Shown here in pieces: positions 239 to 5,660 of a DNA stretch of 5,660 nt (positions are counted from its first letter, which is position 1; every line of letters starts with the position of its first letter). Made by a program: the position numbers and the translations under genes. The notes under the pieces were generated by a model, which saw only the letters and a program-made list of their open reading frames with translations, searched no databases and was not told the DNA's origin. Source of the DNA: Candidatus Mcinerneyibacteriota bacterium (lineage in GTDB: Bacteria; AUK180; JAQVHJ01); assembly GCA_030630935.1 (NCBI GenBank), contig DAOVMD010000228.1, positions 1 to 5,660 on the forward strand, read 5' to 3'.

Positions 239-264
239 AAATAAGTTAAAAAAGGAGAATCAAA

Positions 265-819
265 ATGGGTAAAGTCTGTCCCTGGTGGATTGGATATTTT
301 CTATTAAGTCCTATTCGGAAATTGCGTCAGAACCCGGATAAAATTTTATCTCCATATATTGAAAAAGGAATGAAAATTCTGGATATTGGTTCAGGAATGG
401 GGTATTTTAGTTTGCCGATGGCTTGTATGGTTGGGGATAAAGGTAAAGTTATCTGTATTGATCTTCAGGAAAAAATGCTAAATAAACTTAAGAGACGTGC
501 TGATAAAGCAGGATTAAATAAGACAATAGAAACAAGGTTATGTCCTTCAGAATCTTTGGGAATTGAAGACCTGAAAGACGAGATTGATTTCGTATTGTTA
601 TTTGCACTGGTTCATGAAGTACCGGATATAAAGATTTTATTCACTGAAGTTTTTGAAACATTAAAATCACGTGGTAAGGTTCTTGTGTCAGAACCAAAAG
701 GGCATGTTACAGATAAAGAACTTGCTGAGACTGCTGCGATTGCTGAAGAAGTTGGTTTTGAAGTGATCGGTCAACCCAATATTAAACAATCCAGAAGTGT
801 TTTACTACAGAAAAAATAA
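265..819 (+). CDS. Class I SAM-dependent methyltransferase (CPWW type)
   Basis: A complete 184-residue protein. The ATG has a good ribosome site, AGGAG at 253-257, seven bases upstream. Motif I of the Rossmann-type methyltransferases is at residues 38-48 (ILDIGSGMGYF), binding S-adenosylmethionine. The acidic residue ending strand 2 is D66 in 'VICIDLQEKML', and 'IDFVLLFALVHEV' supplies the post-motif region with a His-Glu pair. The C-terminal half ends in 'GKVLVSEPKGHV' and a short final sheet, as in the Methyltransf_11/31 families. The N-terminus 'VCPWWIGYFLLSP' is a signature of a small group of stand-alone bacterial methyltransferases whose substrate is, to my knowledge, unknown. There is no signal peptide, so the protein is likely cytosolic. 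The length is typical for a minimal single-domain enzyme. It follows the amidohydrolase by 26 nt and ends facing the convergent DUF72 gene. Methyl transfer is secure at family level; the acceptor cannot be inferred. Confidence 0.9.
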   Translation: MGKVCPWWIGYFLLSPIRKLRQNPDKILSPYIEKGMKILDIGSGMGYFSLPMACMVGDKGKVICIDLQEKMLNKLKRRADKAGLNKTIETRLCPSESLGIEDLKDEIDFVLLFALVHEVPDIKILFTEVFETLKSRGKVLVSEPKGHVTDKELAETAAIAEEVGFEVIGQPNIKQSRSVLLQKK

Positions 820-993: not shown

Positions 994-1788
994 CTATTCG
1001 GACAGGCTTTTCTTAAGTTTTATTGCGTTCCTGACGGCTTTTGCCTGGTAATGGTTATTAAAGATAACTACTAACATCTTTAATTTCTTGACCATCTTGA
1101 GAATTCTTTTTTTAATTTCATTCTCAATTTCATCATCGGAATATTCATAATTATAACGCTCATGAACTTCTCCGGGCTTCCACCATTTATCCTTGTTTCT
1201 TCCATGTAATCTAAAATATCCGATTGAATTGGTTATCTTATTTACATCTGACGGAAAGAGTCCCTTGACTTTGGGAGTATCAACATTGGTTATAATAAAG
1301 TTGTTCTCTTTCAAGAAATCGTAAACTTCCTTGTTATCCCAAGAATAATTTCTAAATTCAATTGCTTTCTTGAAATCAAATTCAATAGAAATTCTTCGAA
1401 GGTATTCCAGGTTCTCAAGGTTAAATCTAAATGAATATGGAAATTGAAATAGAACAATGAATTCTCTTTCGGTCTGGATAAGAGGTTTTATACTATTATT
1501 AAAATCTTTTCGAGTATCTTCAAAATTTTCTCTGTGATGTGTAATGTTTTGATGCATCTTCAATGTTAATAGAAAATCCTTCGGTGTATTTTTTACTAAG
1601 AACCAAAAATATCCAGGTTGCAGAATTCGGTAATAAGTTGAGTCAATCTCAAGCGTATTAAAATACTTCAAGTAATGTTTAATTTTCTCCCCGCCTTTCT
1701 TAACACCTTCAGGATAGAATATTTCTTCCCAATCCGAATACGAATATCCCGCAGTGCCGATCCTTATACCTTCTAAATTATCCTTCAT
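994..1788 (-). CDS. DUF72 (YecE-like) protein
   Basis: A complete 264-residue protein of the DUF72 family, which has a TIM-barrel-like fold and no firmly established biochemical function; E. coli YecE is a member. Family marks are 'IRIGTAGYSYSDW' at residues 8-20, 'FYP' at 23-25, 'FNTLEIDSTYYR' at 43-54 (usual form VEINSTFYR), 'FLLTLKMHQNITH', 'RLHGR' at 192-196 and 'FNNHYQAKAVRNA' at 243-255. All the conserved blocks are present and the length is normal, so the gene looks intact. The start at 1788 is supported by AGGAG (complement of 1796-1800) seven bases upstream. The reading frame overlaps the end of the phosphohydrolase gene by 11 nt, which points to translational coupling in one operon. 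No signal peptide is visible. Family assignment is secure; any catalytic role is unknown. Confidence 0.95.
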   Translation of the reverse strand: MKDNLEGIRIGTAGYSYSDWEEIFYPEGVKKGGEKIKHYLKYFNTLEIDSTYYRILQPGYFWFLVKNTPKDFLLTLKMHQNITHHRENFEDTRKDFNNSIKPLIQTEREFIVLFQFPYSFRFNLENLEYLRRISIEFDFKKAIEFRNYSWDNKEVYDFLKENNFIITNVDTPKVKGLFPSDVNKITNSIGYFRLHGRNKDKWWKPGEVHERYNYEYSDDEIENEIKKRILKMVKKLKMLVVIFNNHYQAKAVRNAIKLKKSLSE

Positions 1789-3259
1789 TTACCAGCTCCT
1801 TGCATCTTTTCCCGTCAGTCTCAGGGGTTGGTAATCCTGCTAACATAGAGAGAGTAGGGAATACATCAATGATACTGATATCGCTTTTGAAGTTTTTATT
1901 TATACCATCACCTGCGAAGATATAAATCCCTTTTAGATGATGAATTCCCTGGTGAAAATCTTCTAACCCTTCTACTAATAAATCACCCTTACCCTGATCA
2001 CTGAAACTACCGGAGAATGTTATTCCGGGTTCCGGGACGATTATTAAATCAGGAAGAGAATCAAATCTGGAACCTTTATATAACTCTTCCTTTGTGAATA
2101 TTGTATTGATAACTTTTCGAGTACCAAGTTGATTTAGTTCTTCAAGATTCATAATTAATTCTTTCCTGAACGAATTTTTATCTTTCACGAGTTTCTCGTT
2201 AATATATATGAATCCATAAGAACTTCGGCCTATTGCAATAACTTTTGATTTGGACCAGAGGATCGGTTGAGTTGCTTTCTCAACGGCATTCAACCATTTA
2301 TCTTTGAAAACTTTTTTAAGAATCCCTAGTAAATCAAATTTACGCAGAGCGCGGATTGTTAAACTTTTAAATGAATTTGAAGAATTTAAATTTCTTATAC
2401 AATAATTCTTGGTTGAAAGAAAATCTCCAAGGTTAATTCGTTTATCGTGAGGTTGGAAACCATGGTCTGAGATAATTGTTACAAGTAAATCTTCATGTGT
2501 TGATTTAATTTGGTTCACCATTGACTGCAAACGATTATCTAAAAATTTATAGAAATTATTACCTATGTTATTATAAGCTTCTGAACTGTAATCTTTATGG
2601 TTTTTATCTAACTTCTTCCAATACGGATGCTGTAGAATATCAGTTACTTGAAAATGTACCATCATTAAGTCAGGGTCTTCCTTGTCAAATAAATATAATG
2701 CCGCATCTTTTCTTGTATCAATAATCTTCCGTAATTCAAGTAAATACCTGTCAATTTCTTTATATGAAAAATCCTTCTTGATCCTACTTAACTGGAAAAT
2801 ATGATAGCTTGGATTATTATTTAAAAATTCAGTTTTGAAATTACGCGGATAAATAAAATTTGAATCAATTCCAGGAGTTAGCATTCCCGAGATTATTACG
2901 CCATTTACTTTTCTGGGGGGGAATGTCATAGGGACATTTAACGAAACTACTTTTTTACCTTGCTCTGAGAAATATTCCCAGATTGTTTTTGGGAGATTCT
3001 TCCCATTTACAATTCCAAGCTTATTGTTTTCCAGATCAAGTGTTACAAAATCTACATATCCCAAGTCTCCTGGTTTCATTCCTGTCTGAAACGCTCCCCA
3101 TGCAACAGGAGTCTGTGGTGGAATTGTGGATATTAAATTACCTGATGCCCCGGATTCTCGCAAAGATGCTAAAAAAGGCATGTACCCATCTTTTATTAAC
3201 TCATCATAGAGTTTCCAGGAACCACCGTCTAATCCAATTATTAATATTTTCTTCTTCAT
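1778..3259 (-). CDS. Alkaline phosphatase superfamily phosphohydrolase (COG3379-like)
   Basis: A complete 493-residue protein of the type I phosphodiesterase/nucleotide pyrophosphatase branch of the alkaline phosphatase superfamily. All seven expected two-metal site residues can be placed: D11 in 'IIGLDGG', nucleophile T50 in 'PPQTPVAWGAFQTG', D207 and H211 in 'VTDILQH' (D-x3-H), D265-H266 in 'IISDHGF', and H440 in 'GIHHLKG'. 'DVFPTLSMLAGLPTPETDGK' is the usual family C-terminus. Such enzymes cleave phosphomonoesters or diesters using two metal ions, commonly zinc. There is no signal peptide or membrane segment, so unlike many relatives it should act in the cytosol, as is usual for COG3379-type members; the substrate is unknown. 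It starts 6 nt after a predicted -10 box and lacks a Shine-Dalgarno site. It overlaps the downstream DUF72 gene by 11 nt. Nothing in the neighbourhood reveals its pathway. Confidence 0.93.
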   Translation of the reverse strand: MKKKILIIGLDGGSWKLYDELIKDGYMPFLASLRESGASGNLISTIPPQTPVAWGAFQTGMKPGDLGYVDFVTLDLENNKLGIVNGKNLPKTIWEYFSEQGKKVVSLNVPMTFPPRKVNGVIISGMLTPGIDSNFIYPRNFKTEFLNNNPSYHIFQLSRIKKDFSYKEIDRYLLELRKIIDTRKDAALYLFDKEDPDLMMVHFQVTDILQHPYWKKLDKNHKDYSSEAYNNIGNNFYKFLDNRLQSMVNQIKSTHEDLLVTIISDHGFQPHDKRINLGDFLSTKNYCIRNLNSSNSFKSLTIRALRKFDLLGILKKVFKDKWLNAVEKATQPILWSKSKVIAIGRSSYGFIYINEKLVKDKNSFRKELIMNLEELNQLGTRKVINTIFTKEELYKGSRFDSLPDLIIVPEPGITFSGSFSDQGKGDLLVEGLEDFHQGIHHLKGIYIFAGDGINKNFKSDISIIDVFPTLSMLAGLPTPETDGKRCKELVNEG

Positions 3260-3265
3260 AGGTTT

Positions 3266-3294
3266 AGTATAAACTTTTTTATTTTAAAAATCAA
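3266..3294 (-). promoter_or_regulatory. Promoter of phosphohydrolase-DUF72 operon, apparently leaderless
   Basis: On the minus strand, TTGATT (3294-3289) and TATACT (3271-3266) are separated by exactly 17 bp. Six bases (AAACCT) then lead to the ATG at 3259, so initiation at the usual distance would fall on the A of the start codon. No Shine-Dalgarno sequence is present in those six bases. The boxes match the housekeeping sigma consensus at 4/6 and 5/6 positions. The region is AT-rich, which lowers the weight of such matches, but the spacing is ideal and the same geometry recurs at 4413-4441. Confidence 0.65.
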
Positions 3295-3320
3295 GGAAAA
3301 TTTATGAAAAACCATGCTGC

Positions 3321-3379
3321 GCAATTAAAAATGAAGAATGAATAAGTAAGAATGATTTTGCATTAATGATTATAATGCA
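3321..3379 (+). repeat. Dispersed intergenic repeat, copy 2
   Basis: This is the second direct copy of the fragment at 838-894. It shares 'gcaatta', the 15-mer at 3330-3344 and the terminal tgca...tgca segment, which here is a clean hairpin: tgcatta (3359-3365), 7-nt loop, taatgca (3373-3379). It has an extra module, aataagtaagaatga (3341-3355), that is absent from copy 1 but occurs exactly inverted at 3585-3599. It lies just upstream of the phosphohydrolase promoter. No protein is encoded. Confidence 0.6.
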
Positions 3380-3564
3380 CTTGTTCAGAGAAATATTTCA
3401 TAGTAAAATTATTGGTTATCCATAATTGACAAATGAAGAGATTCATTCTGTTCTCTACGTCTGGAGTTTACCAGAATTTACTTCGGGGCGGTGAAAGAAG
3501 CATTCTTTAGTTCATTTAAGCAATTTCAGCACTGAGTAAGAGCATTGTCGTATATAACGCAAAC
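3380..3564. other. Unassigned intergenic sequence
   Basis: This is the rest of the 318-nt spacer between the flavodoxin/ferredoxin gene and the phosphohydrolase operon. I see no gene, RNA gene or clear terminator. A small inverted repeat tctgg/ccaga occurs near 3460-3475. Around 3480-3490 the sequence is somewhat more GC-rich than the rest. The sequence lies between two inverted copies of the same repeat module (3341-3355 and 3585-3599), so it may be the interior of a decayed element. Confidence 0.4.
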
Positions 3565-3599
3565 CATTCTTCATTGTTCATTTTTCATTCTTACTTATT
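3565..3599 (-). repeat. Dispersed repeat, inverted copy overlapping a gene end
   Basis: On the minus strand this reads as the module aataagtaagaatga (3599-3585) followed by a short A-rich joint and aacaatgaagaatg (3578-3565). The first module is identical to 3341-3355, the second to 850-863. The two modules are in the opposite order from copy 2. The copy contains the stop codon and last six codons of the flavodoxin/ferredoxin gene, implying that the repeat reshaped that protein's C-terminus. Confidence 0.6.
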
Positions 3600-4405
3600 T
3601 TGTTGGGTCCTTTATACCTGAATTTACCTGAAGTAAATAGTGAATTAATTGCTTTTGTCGGACAAATATTAATACATCCATAACAACCGATACAATCACC
3701 TTTCGGTTTAGGGAACTTGGCAAGGTTAATCCTTCCGGTCGGGCAGACCTCTTCACATTTTCTGCATCGAATACAGAGCTCAAGGTCAACAATAATTGGT
3801 AAGAATTTTCCCAGGAATTTTTTATTAAATAAAACTCTAACCCAGTTAATCGGGGAATAAGATGGTTTGAAATTTTTAATTTCATGTTTACCATGAATAA
3901 AACCAAGGAATGTCTGATATAAAGTACTTGCAAATGTATATATATCCTGGTCAGCTAAATCATGAATATTTTCGGGATACTTAGATATAAATTTAAGAGT
4001 CCTTAATATTGGCCATGAGTCTATCATTGAGATTGAACAATCAGATAGAACTGAATATCCTTTAAATGTTAATTTCTTAGCAAAATATCTTGAAGAGCCA
4101 TAAGGTCCCCCGCCATTTGTATGGAATAGGAAACATGGTTTCCCGCCCCCGGGCGGGAGAGTATAGAAATAATCAATCATTGTTAACATTGGCTTGAATG
4201 CAAAAACAGGATAACAAAATCCGATGAAATCAAACTCAGTAACATCCTTTTCCAGCTTTTCTCTGACCCGATGTTTATATGGCGTGAAATTAAATTCAAT
4301 TAGATATTCCGCAAGTTTATCAACTGCCCACTTAGTATTTCCGGTTGCAGAGTCCCATAATAATAAGACATTAATTTTCCTATTTATATTCTGTTCTTCA
4401 TTCAT
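3578..4405 (-). CDS. Flavodoxin-like / 2[4Fe-4S] ferredoxin fusion (EFR1-like)
   Basis: A complete 275-residue protein. The N-terminal domain is flavodoxin-like: 'VLLLWDSATGNTKWAV' (13-28) carries the T/S-x-T-G-N-T phosphate-binding loop for FMN, 'FDFIGFCYPVFAFKP' (58-72) is the next strand-turn, and 'KPCFLFHTNGGGPYGSS' (89-105) follows. The C-terminal domain is a bacterial ferredoxin with two CxxCxxCxxxCP motifs, at C211/C214/C217/C221 and C238/C241/C244/C248, so it should bind two [4Fe-4S] clusters. This architecture matches the EFR1-type ferredoxin proteins of anaerobes; the partner reaction is not known to me. No signal peptide is visible, so it is probably a cytosolic electron carrier or oxidoreductase. 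The ATG lies 7 nt after a perfect TATAAT, with no Shine-Dalgarno site. The last six residues (ISKNEK) and the stop are encoded inside a dispersed repeat. Cofactor binding is confidently predicted; the role is not. Confidence 0.93.
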   Translation of the reverse strand: MNEEQNINRKINVLLLWDSATGNTKWAVDKLAEYLIEFNFTPYKHRVREKLEKDVTEFDFIGFCYPVFAFKPMLTMIDYFYTLPPGGGKPCFLFHTNGGGPYGSSRYFAKKLTFKGYSVLSDCSISMIDSWPILRTLKFISKYPENIHDLADQDIYTFASTLYQTFLGFIHGKHEIKNFKPSYSPINWVRVLFNKKFLGKFLPIIVDLELCIRCRKCEEVCPTGRINLAKFPKPKGDCIGCYGCINICPTKAINSLFTSGKFRYKGPNKISKNEK

Positions 4406-4412
4406 GATTTAG

Positions 4413-4441
4413 ATTATAACATAAAATTAGATTCAAGACAA
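4413..4441 (-). promoter_or_regulatory. Promoter of the flavodoxin/ferredoxin gene, apparently leaderless
   Basis: On the minus strand, TTGTCT (4441-4436) and a perfect TATAAT (4418-4413) are separated by 17 bp. Seven bases (CTAAATC) follow before the ATG at 4405. Initiation at the normal distance would be on the A of ATG, and there is no ribosome-binding motif. The geometry is nearly the same as at 3266-3294, which strengthens both calls. Confidence 0.7.
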
Positions 4442-4521
4442 TAAAAATTTTTAGTTTATTCGGTATGTTTTATTCGAAGATGCATTGACATTCAACCGTA
4501 AAATAATATAAAGACATTATT

Positions 4522-5086: not shown

Positions 5087-5115
5087 TTGATTTTCAGATA
5101 TATTTAAGTTATAAT
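5087..5115 (+). promoter_or_regulatory. Strong sigma70-type promoter
   Basis: TTGATT (5087-5092) and a perfect TATAAT (5110-5115) are separated by 17 bp. Initiation is expected near 5122. That gives a leader of about 36 nt to the mini-ORF at 5158 and about 227 nt to the secreted-protein ATG at 5349. No clear terminator is seen in between, so it is the best candidate promoter for that gene. Confidence 0.65.
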
Positions 5116-5157: not shown

Positions 5158-5184
5158 ATGAAAATTAAACAAAGAATAAAATAA
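5158..5184 (+). CDS. 8-codon mini-ORF (leader peptide or decayed gene start)
   Basis: The ATG at 5158 is preceded by a purine-rich site, agaagga (5144-5150), at normal spacing, and encodes MKIKQRIK before TAA at 5182-5184. A second TAA follows directly after the first. It lies about 36 nt downstream of the predicted start of the 5087-5115 promoter and 164 nt ahead of the secreted-protein gene. The peptide has four Lys/Arg residues in eight and no run of one amino acid with an obvious biosynthetic link. It could be a regulatory leader peptide, or the surviving start of a lost gene. Translation is plausible from the sequence; the role is inference. Confidence 0.4.
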   Translation: MKIKQRIK

Positions 5185-5318: not shown

Positions 5319-5348
5319 TGCCATAATATAAGAAAAAGGAGGTTACAC

Positions 5349-5660
5349 ATGAAAAGAATCTCATCATTTATCTTGGTTATCATGATGATTATTCTACTCT
5401 CTGTACCAAGTTATGCAAAGAAAAGGAGACCGAAAAAGCGGAGAAAACCGCCAAAAGTGGAGAAAACAGAATCAAAAACAAAGGTGATAATTAAGGAAAT
5501 AATAGAAGCAAACTTCGCTATTTCTTATGATGTCTTCACTAAATCATTCAGGAGTCATACTCTTCAATTAGCTGAATATCAAACCAACTATTTCATTCCG
5601 CATCCTACAGGAATTCAAATGAAACTTTCCAGGGATGATCTCTTTATGAAAATAGGCTTG
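5349..5660 (+). CDS. Secreted protein with very basic mature N-terminus, partial
   Basis: The frame is open from ATG 5349 to the window edge (104 codons seen), so the 3' end is missing. The start has a full AGGAGG (5337-5342) six bases upstream. Residues 1-23 form a Sec signal peptide: basic MKR, a hydrophobic core (about 7-17, FILVIMMIILL) and a probable signal peptidase I site after 'PSYA' (A23). No lipobox cysteine is present. The mature chain begins with ten Lys/Arg among thirteen residues, mixed with prolines (24-36), then a charged linker and a mixed region from about residue 46 onward ('ANFAISYDVFTKSF', 'YQTNYFIPHPTGIQMKL'). The latter could be beta strands of a periplasmic or outer-membrane domain. 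I do not recognise the family. Its promoter is probably at 5087-5115, giving a long structured leader. Confidence 0.8.
   Translation, partial: MKRISSFILVIMMIILLSVPSYAKKRRPKKRRKPPKVEKTESKTKVIIKEIIEANFAISYDVFTKSFRSHTLQLAEYQTNYFIPHPTGIQMKLSRDDLFMKIGL

Follow-up and report, generated by a model that had tools for sequence, protein, structure and literature searches.

Do bacterial genes whose promoters lie only 6 or 7 nt ahead of the start codon give mRNAs that begin at the ATG itself, and is such leaderless expression a regular habit of the lineage that carries them? The question is raised by two minus-strand genes, here called gene A and gene B, in a window of 5,660 bp. The window is an entire contig (C278) of the draft genome G000, an assembly of 3.16 Mb in 471 contigs that is 80% complete. 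No 16S rRNA was found in the G000 bin. Its RpoB shares at most ~49% identity with that of named bacteria and forms a long branch, from which the lineage is judged to be a deep one. The RpoB tree offered Elusimicrobiota as the neighbour of G000, a long-branch placement that was not trusted. RpoB and RpoC are encoded in one ORF with no stop between them (L188:1474-6738, contig C426), and the RpoC-type RLASPEKIRSWSFGEV follows directly after the end of RpoB; no clear case of such a fusion was found among 80 RpoB loci of other bacteria.

Gene-level analyses of G000 were carried out on a sample of this fragmented draft, 120 contigs of 33% GC that add up to 832 kb, or 26% of the genome. Home-made gene calls, produced without using upstream signals, gave 617 genes on these contigs. 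Genes opening with ATG were sorted into 223 'first' and 249 operon-internal genes, and 47 intermediate genes were set aside. The comparison genomes were G001, which belongs to the family of G000, and G002-G006, which are each at least 91% complete and belong to another family (f2) of the same class.

The window and its two predicted promoters

The window holds the end of an amidohydrolase gene (2-238), a methyltransferase gene (265-819, plus strand), a DUF72 gene (994-1788, minus strand; PF01904, E 7.3e-51), gene B (1778-3259, minus strand), gene A (3578-4405, minus strand) and a secreted-protein gene (5349 onward, plus strand). Gene B encodes a putative 493-aa member of the type I phosphodiesterase / nucleotide pyrophosphatase family (PF01663, E 1.5e-31). 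It is the first gene ahead of the DUF72 gene, with which it shares an end overlap of 11 bases, and the order methyltransferase / DUF72 / phosphodiesterase is also found in G001. Gene A encodes a putative EFR1 family ferredoxin of 275 aa (NCBIfam NF038196, E 3.9e-32, above the cut-off; Fer4), made up of a flavodoxin-like part and a 2[4Fe-4S] part.

The first-pass annotation had assigned both genes -35 and -10 boxes at 17-bp spacing, 6 or 7 nt before the ATG, and all of these boxes were recovered at their positions. On the minus strand ahead of gene A, the -35 hexamer TTGTCT (4436-4441) is separated by a 17-bp spacer from an extended -10 element, TGtTATAAT, whose hexamer TATAAT occupies 4413-4418, and a 7-nt discriminator, CTAAATC (4406-4412), leads from the -10 box to the ATG at 4405. 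Gene B has the -35 hexamer TTGATT (3289-3294), a 17-bp spacer, the -10 hexamer TATACT (3266-3271) and a 6-nt discriminator, AAACCT (3260-3265), before the ATG at 3259, all on the minus strand. Neither ATG is preceded by a Shine-Dalgarno (SD) motif. The SD sites that the annotation had reported elsewhere in the window, as a contrast to genes A and B, were likewise confirmed: AGGAG at 253-257 (plus strand) ahead of the methyltransferase ATG at 265, AGGAG at 1800-1796 (minus strand) ahead of the DUF72 ATG at 1788, and AGGAGG at 5337-5342 (plus strand) ahead of the secreted-protein ATG at 5349.

As read from the sequence, the annotated starts of genes A and B are sound and unambiguous, because alignments with homologues of gene B begin at residues 1-4 and gene A has no alternative in-frame ATG, GTG or TTG within 20 codons upstream or 30 codons downstream. 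No downstream SD-led start was found in the first 25 codons of either gene. The best relatives of gene A are paralogues or distant homologues with 25-33% identity, and the nearest copy of gene B, in G001, is truncated where its contig stops; for neither gene was a close orthologue found whose upstream sequence can be read.

Both promoter-like sequences might be chance occurrences in AT-rich intergenic DNA, with the genes being transcribed from elsewhere, for example by read-through or from a promoter in the repeat element between them, into mRNAs with longer leaders that lack an SD site. Such a reading can point to a plain consensus promoter scan of the window, which returned 29 sites where shuffles gave 25.0, no excess, and to the fact that about half of the first genes in G000 have no obvious SD. 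The plain scan says little. A paired -35/-10 model was learned from G000 first genes; only sites lying 12-60 nt ahead of the start entered the training, which kept short spacings out of it. The model converged on TTGA(C)(A/T), a 17-bp spacer (in 85% of modelled promoters) and TATAAT. It scored the gene A and gene B sites at 9.6 and 10.0, against 4.8 and 4.3 for the next-best upstream sites. Against the gene A site, its -35 hexamer is without the position-4 A present in ~90% of modelled G000 promoters. No better site lies within ~70 nt upstream of either gene, and scores of at least 9.5 at 5-8 nt from the start were reached in 0.022% of shuffled upstream regions, which argues against chance. 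Promoters at 6-7 nt spacing are thus well supported statistically for both genes.

Two further features of the window concern its intergenic DNA. An interspersed repeat of 277 bp (3323-3599) lies between genes A and B, has imperfect terminal inverted repeats (3323-3388 vs 3596-3532, 73%) and looks like a MITE-type element; the final codons of gene A and its stop codon lie within it. At one position it is matched by up to 30 other places in the sampled 26% of the genome, and the larger region 3100-4500 has 68 genome matches, itself included. Within 837-924 lies a further copy of the repeat end and, after it, a 32-bp palindrome that is nearly perfect (893-924, CAGTAGGGGTTTCCGG...CCCCTACTG). With a GTAG at the foot of the palindrome, the arrangement recalls REP elements; the region 799-987 has up to 29 other matching places. 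Ahead of the secreted-protein gene, a strong plus-strand promoter (TTGATT-17-TATAAT, 5087-5115) lies ~230 nt before the ATG, and the resulting long leader would contain an 8-codon frame at 5158 (MKIKQRIK) behind GAAGGA, a possible leader peptide.

Promoter-to-start spacing across the genome and the class

From the two genes the first-pass annotation had extrapolated to routine use of leaderless mRNAs in the lineage, and it had proposed a search for TATAAT-like boxes 6-8 nt before ATGs that sets first genes against operon-internal ones. When the -10 hexamer was scanned alone, G000 first genes showed no excess at 6-8 nt from the ATG (10 seen vs 11.7 expected); at 15-35 nt such boxes were clearly over-represented. 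This result would suit an origin of the two sites by chance. The absence of a peak is explained by the abundance of hexamer matches, which are too common in DNA of 33% GC and leave such a scan little power. Taken by itself, the null would refute the lineage claim under the annotation's own condition of no genome-wide enrichment of -10 boxes at this distance, a reading that was dropped after the joint -35/-10 test came out positive. In the joint test, scores of at least 8 at 5-8 nt were found for 6/223 first genes vs 0/249 operon-internal genes; at a score of at least 7, six first genes compare with 0.5 expected, and genes A and B are two of these six. The proposed enrichment is therefore seen with the -35 box included and not with the hexamer alone.

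The same short spacing stands out when strong non-coding sites in the sample are sorted by d, the distance in nt from the -10 box to an ATG that opens a real ORF. Seven such sites fall at d=6, three at d=7 and one at d=8, compared with one at d=0-5 and four at d=9-14, and a broad mode begins at 15 nt. SD sites separate the two modes, being present in 0/11 cases at d=5-8 and in 73/93 at d=15-40. The spacing peak is specific to ATG, since GTG was found 0 times and TTG twice as the start at d=5-8. The d=5-8 genes encode a PASTA protein, an AraC-type regulator, an OmpA protein and several membrane or secreted proteins, and this diversity means that they are not one copied locus. They make up ~10% of the strong sites that have an ATG-opened ORF within 40 nt.

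Several d=6 sites in G000, among them L093:2426 (minus strand) and L184:9133 (plus strand), have TATAAT/ACT-ATTAATATG in common and lead into short frames that start with MSRKLKIEYR or MNRQLRRLKN. These frames resemble degenerate copies of a single repeated gene, perhaps one for a REP-associated transposase; a Pfam search of the fragments returned no match.

For whole genomes, the pattern TTGA-N19-TAWAMT-N(d)-ATGA was counted at d=1-4, 5-8 and 10-13. The respective counts were 20/53/21 in G000 and 11/24/18 in G001, and in family f2 they were 6/35/6 (G002), 5/39/8 (G003), 9/56/5 (G004), 7/80/15 (G005) and 5/39/16 (G006), or 32/249/50 for G002-G006 summed. Fifty-three genomes of other groups, taken together, gave 120 matches at d=5-8 vs 112 at d=10-13, and reversed-pattern controls gave 0-6 matches at d=5-8 across the seven genomes of the class. 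At d=5-8, G000 shows a modest excess and G001 a weak one (24 vs 18 at d=10-13). Several of the G000 matches at d=1-4 are one repeated sequence and some at d=6 share the repeated ATTAATATG family, so the G000 counts are not all independent. Within the 5-8 class, the peak is at d=6-7 in G000 and at d=5-6 in family f2 (22 and 10 matches in G006, 21 and 20 in G004, 17 and 9 in G002). Relative to sites at d=14-40, the 5-8 class amounts to 16% in G000, 10% in G001 and 24-43% in G002-G006, shares that are rough, with background unsubtracted, several ATGs possible per promoter and leaders longer than 40 nt uncounted.

The extrapolation to the lineage is thus supported, with a qualification on routine use: an SD-free peak at 6-8 nt recurs across the genome and the class, and in G000 it is a minority mode that accounts for ~10-16% of strong promoter-proximal starts. 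This recurrence also weighs against chance as the source of the gene A and gene B sites, an explanation that we now regard as unlikely, if still the strongest of the competitors.

Predicted transcription starts and translation of genes A and B

We consider it likely that genes A and B are expressed from sigma-70-type promoters with RNA starting at or near the A of the ATG, that they belong to a small group of promoter-proximal G000 genes distinct from the majority, and that the same two-class architecture extends across the class. At each gene, RNA polymerase would recognise a promoter of the sigma-70 type with its -10 box 6-7 nt ahead of the ATG. Transcription usually begins ~6-9 nt past the -10 box, a distance that leads here to the A of the ATG or an adjacent base, and both RNAs would thus begin on the start-codon A or no more than one or two bases away from it. 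For gene A, the transcription start is predicted at the A of the ATG at 4405 or no more than ~2 nt from it, and for gene B at the A of the ATG at 3259. Most promoter-proximal genes of G000 would instead have an SD site and a 5' leader of at least ~8 nt, and the two-class architecture would run through the whole class, being more pronounced in the sister family represented by G002-G006.

The base before the ATG bears indirectly on the point of initiation. Pyrimidines occupy this position in 78% of d=5-8 sites vs 58% of leadered sites (G004 and G006 combined, p=0.0015), and in the G000 sample T is found there in 7/7 d=6 genes. RNA polymerase usually prefers to start at a purine preceded by a pyrimidine, and the enrichment fits initiation on the A of the start codon. 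An alternative is that the promoters are real and the RNAs carry a very short leader of ~2-5 nt, translation being initiated in some other SD-independent way (S1-dependent or at an unstructured start). The choice of start by the polymerase does vary by a base or two, and possible starts are offered by the purines at 4407-4410 ahead of gene A and at 3263-3265 ahead of gene B. The 6-7 nt spacing mode and the pyrimidine before the ATG fit initiation at the A better, and a leader of this size would differ little in function from none. We therefore regard such short leaders as improbable.

In other bacteria, 70S ribosomes bind leaderless mRNAs at a 5'-terminal AUG, and several species show a strong preference for AUG (PMC9031893). 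By analogy with these literature cases, the leaderless mRNAs of genes A and B, without an SD, might be read by the 70S ribosome on their 5'-terminal AUG. At three other G000 loci (L089:7511, L182:1054 and L112:3461), an ATG at 7 nt from the promoter has an SD-led start shortly downstream, an arrangement that resembles the 5'-terminal AUGs of E. coli (PMC4965119). It is very improbable that in genes A and B, too, the promoter-proximal AUG is a mere 5'-end feature with the protein made from a downstream SD-led start, as for E. coli 5'-uAUG mRNAs. In favour of this reading, the L089 case has a second in-frame ATG behind AGGAGG and those at L182 and L112 open tiny ORFs; against it, genes A and B have no such start in their first 25 codons and the homologues of gene B align from its very first residues.

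With leaderless transcription from the two promoters as the favoured reading, a deep lineage, known here from draft genomes only, joins the lineages for which predictions make leaderless expression a common mode. The sequence rule TTGA-N19-TAWAMT-N5..8-ATGA, evaluated against flanking spacings, offers a means of finding such lineages in AT-rich drafts where -10-only scans fail. Gene callers may misplace leaderless starts; at L091 the simple caller applied here chose a start 17 codons past the predicted leaderless ATG, and it missed other such starts.

Comparison with known leaderless systems

Leaderless genes of this kind are already known, and our addition is an AT-rich, essentially undescribed class; no report of leaderless expression in such a lineage was found in the open-licence literature. 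Zheng et al. (2011) recorded such genes in 207/953 bacterial genomes, at ~20% of genes in Actinobacteria and ~40% in Deinococcus-Thermus (PMC3160421). We lean, with less assurance than for genes A and B themselves, towards a wider proposal. The AT-rich class would have two discrete architectures, one leadered and SD-led and the other leaderless and ATG-only with full -35 and -10 boxes. In its main family, the leaderless genes would account for between a quarter and two fifths of the strong promoter-proximal genes, a proportion comparable with that of Deinococcus and arising in a distant lineage.

The leaderless genes of D. radiodurans have the -10 motif at 6-7 bp, and this geometry, the same as that seen here, is found at nearly a third of genes in Deinococcus (PMC12340547). 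G000 resembles Deinococcus-Thermus in having a -10-like box 6-7 bp from the start and no SD, alongside GGAG-led genes (PMC12340547). The Deinococcus-Thermus motif is TANNNT, in GC-rich DNA and at nearly a third of genes (PMC12340547), whereas G000 has a full TATAAT/TATACT, a strong TTGA -35 and AT-rich DNA, and uses the arrangement for a smaller share. The TA-led genes of Firmicutes (Lactococcus) are similar to those of G000 in their low GC and full TAtAAT, sometimes with TG, ~10-12 bp before the start (PMC3160421). For Lactococcus, that survey infers that the -35 box may be absent (PMC3160421), in contrast to the strong -35 box of G000 and the 17-bp spacing of most of its modelled promoters. 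Mycobacteria share with G000 a sizeable minority of leaderless mRNAs beside SD-led ones (PMC9031893); Mycobacterium smegmatis initiates efficiently on leaderless mRNAs at GUG (PMC9031893), whereas in the G000 sample the short spacing of 5-8 nt is never paired with GTG.
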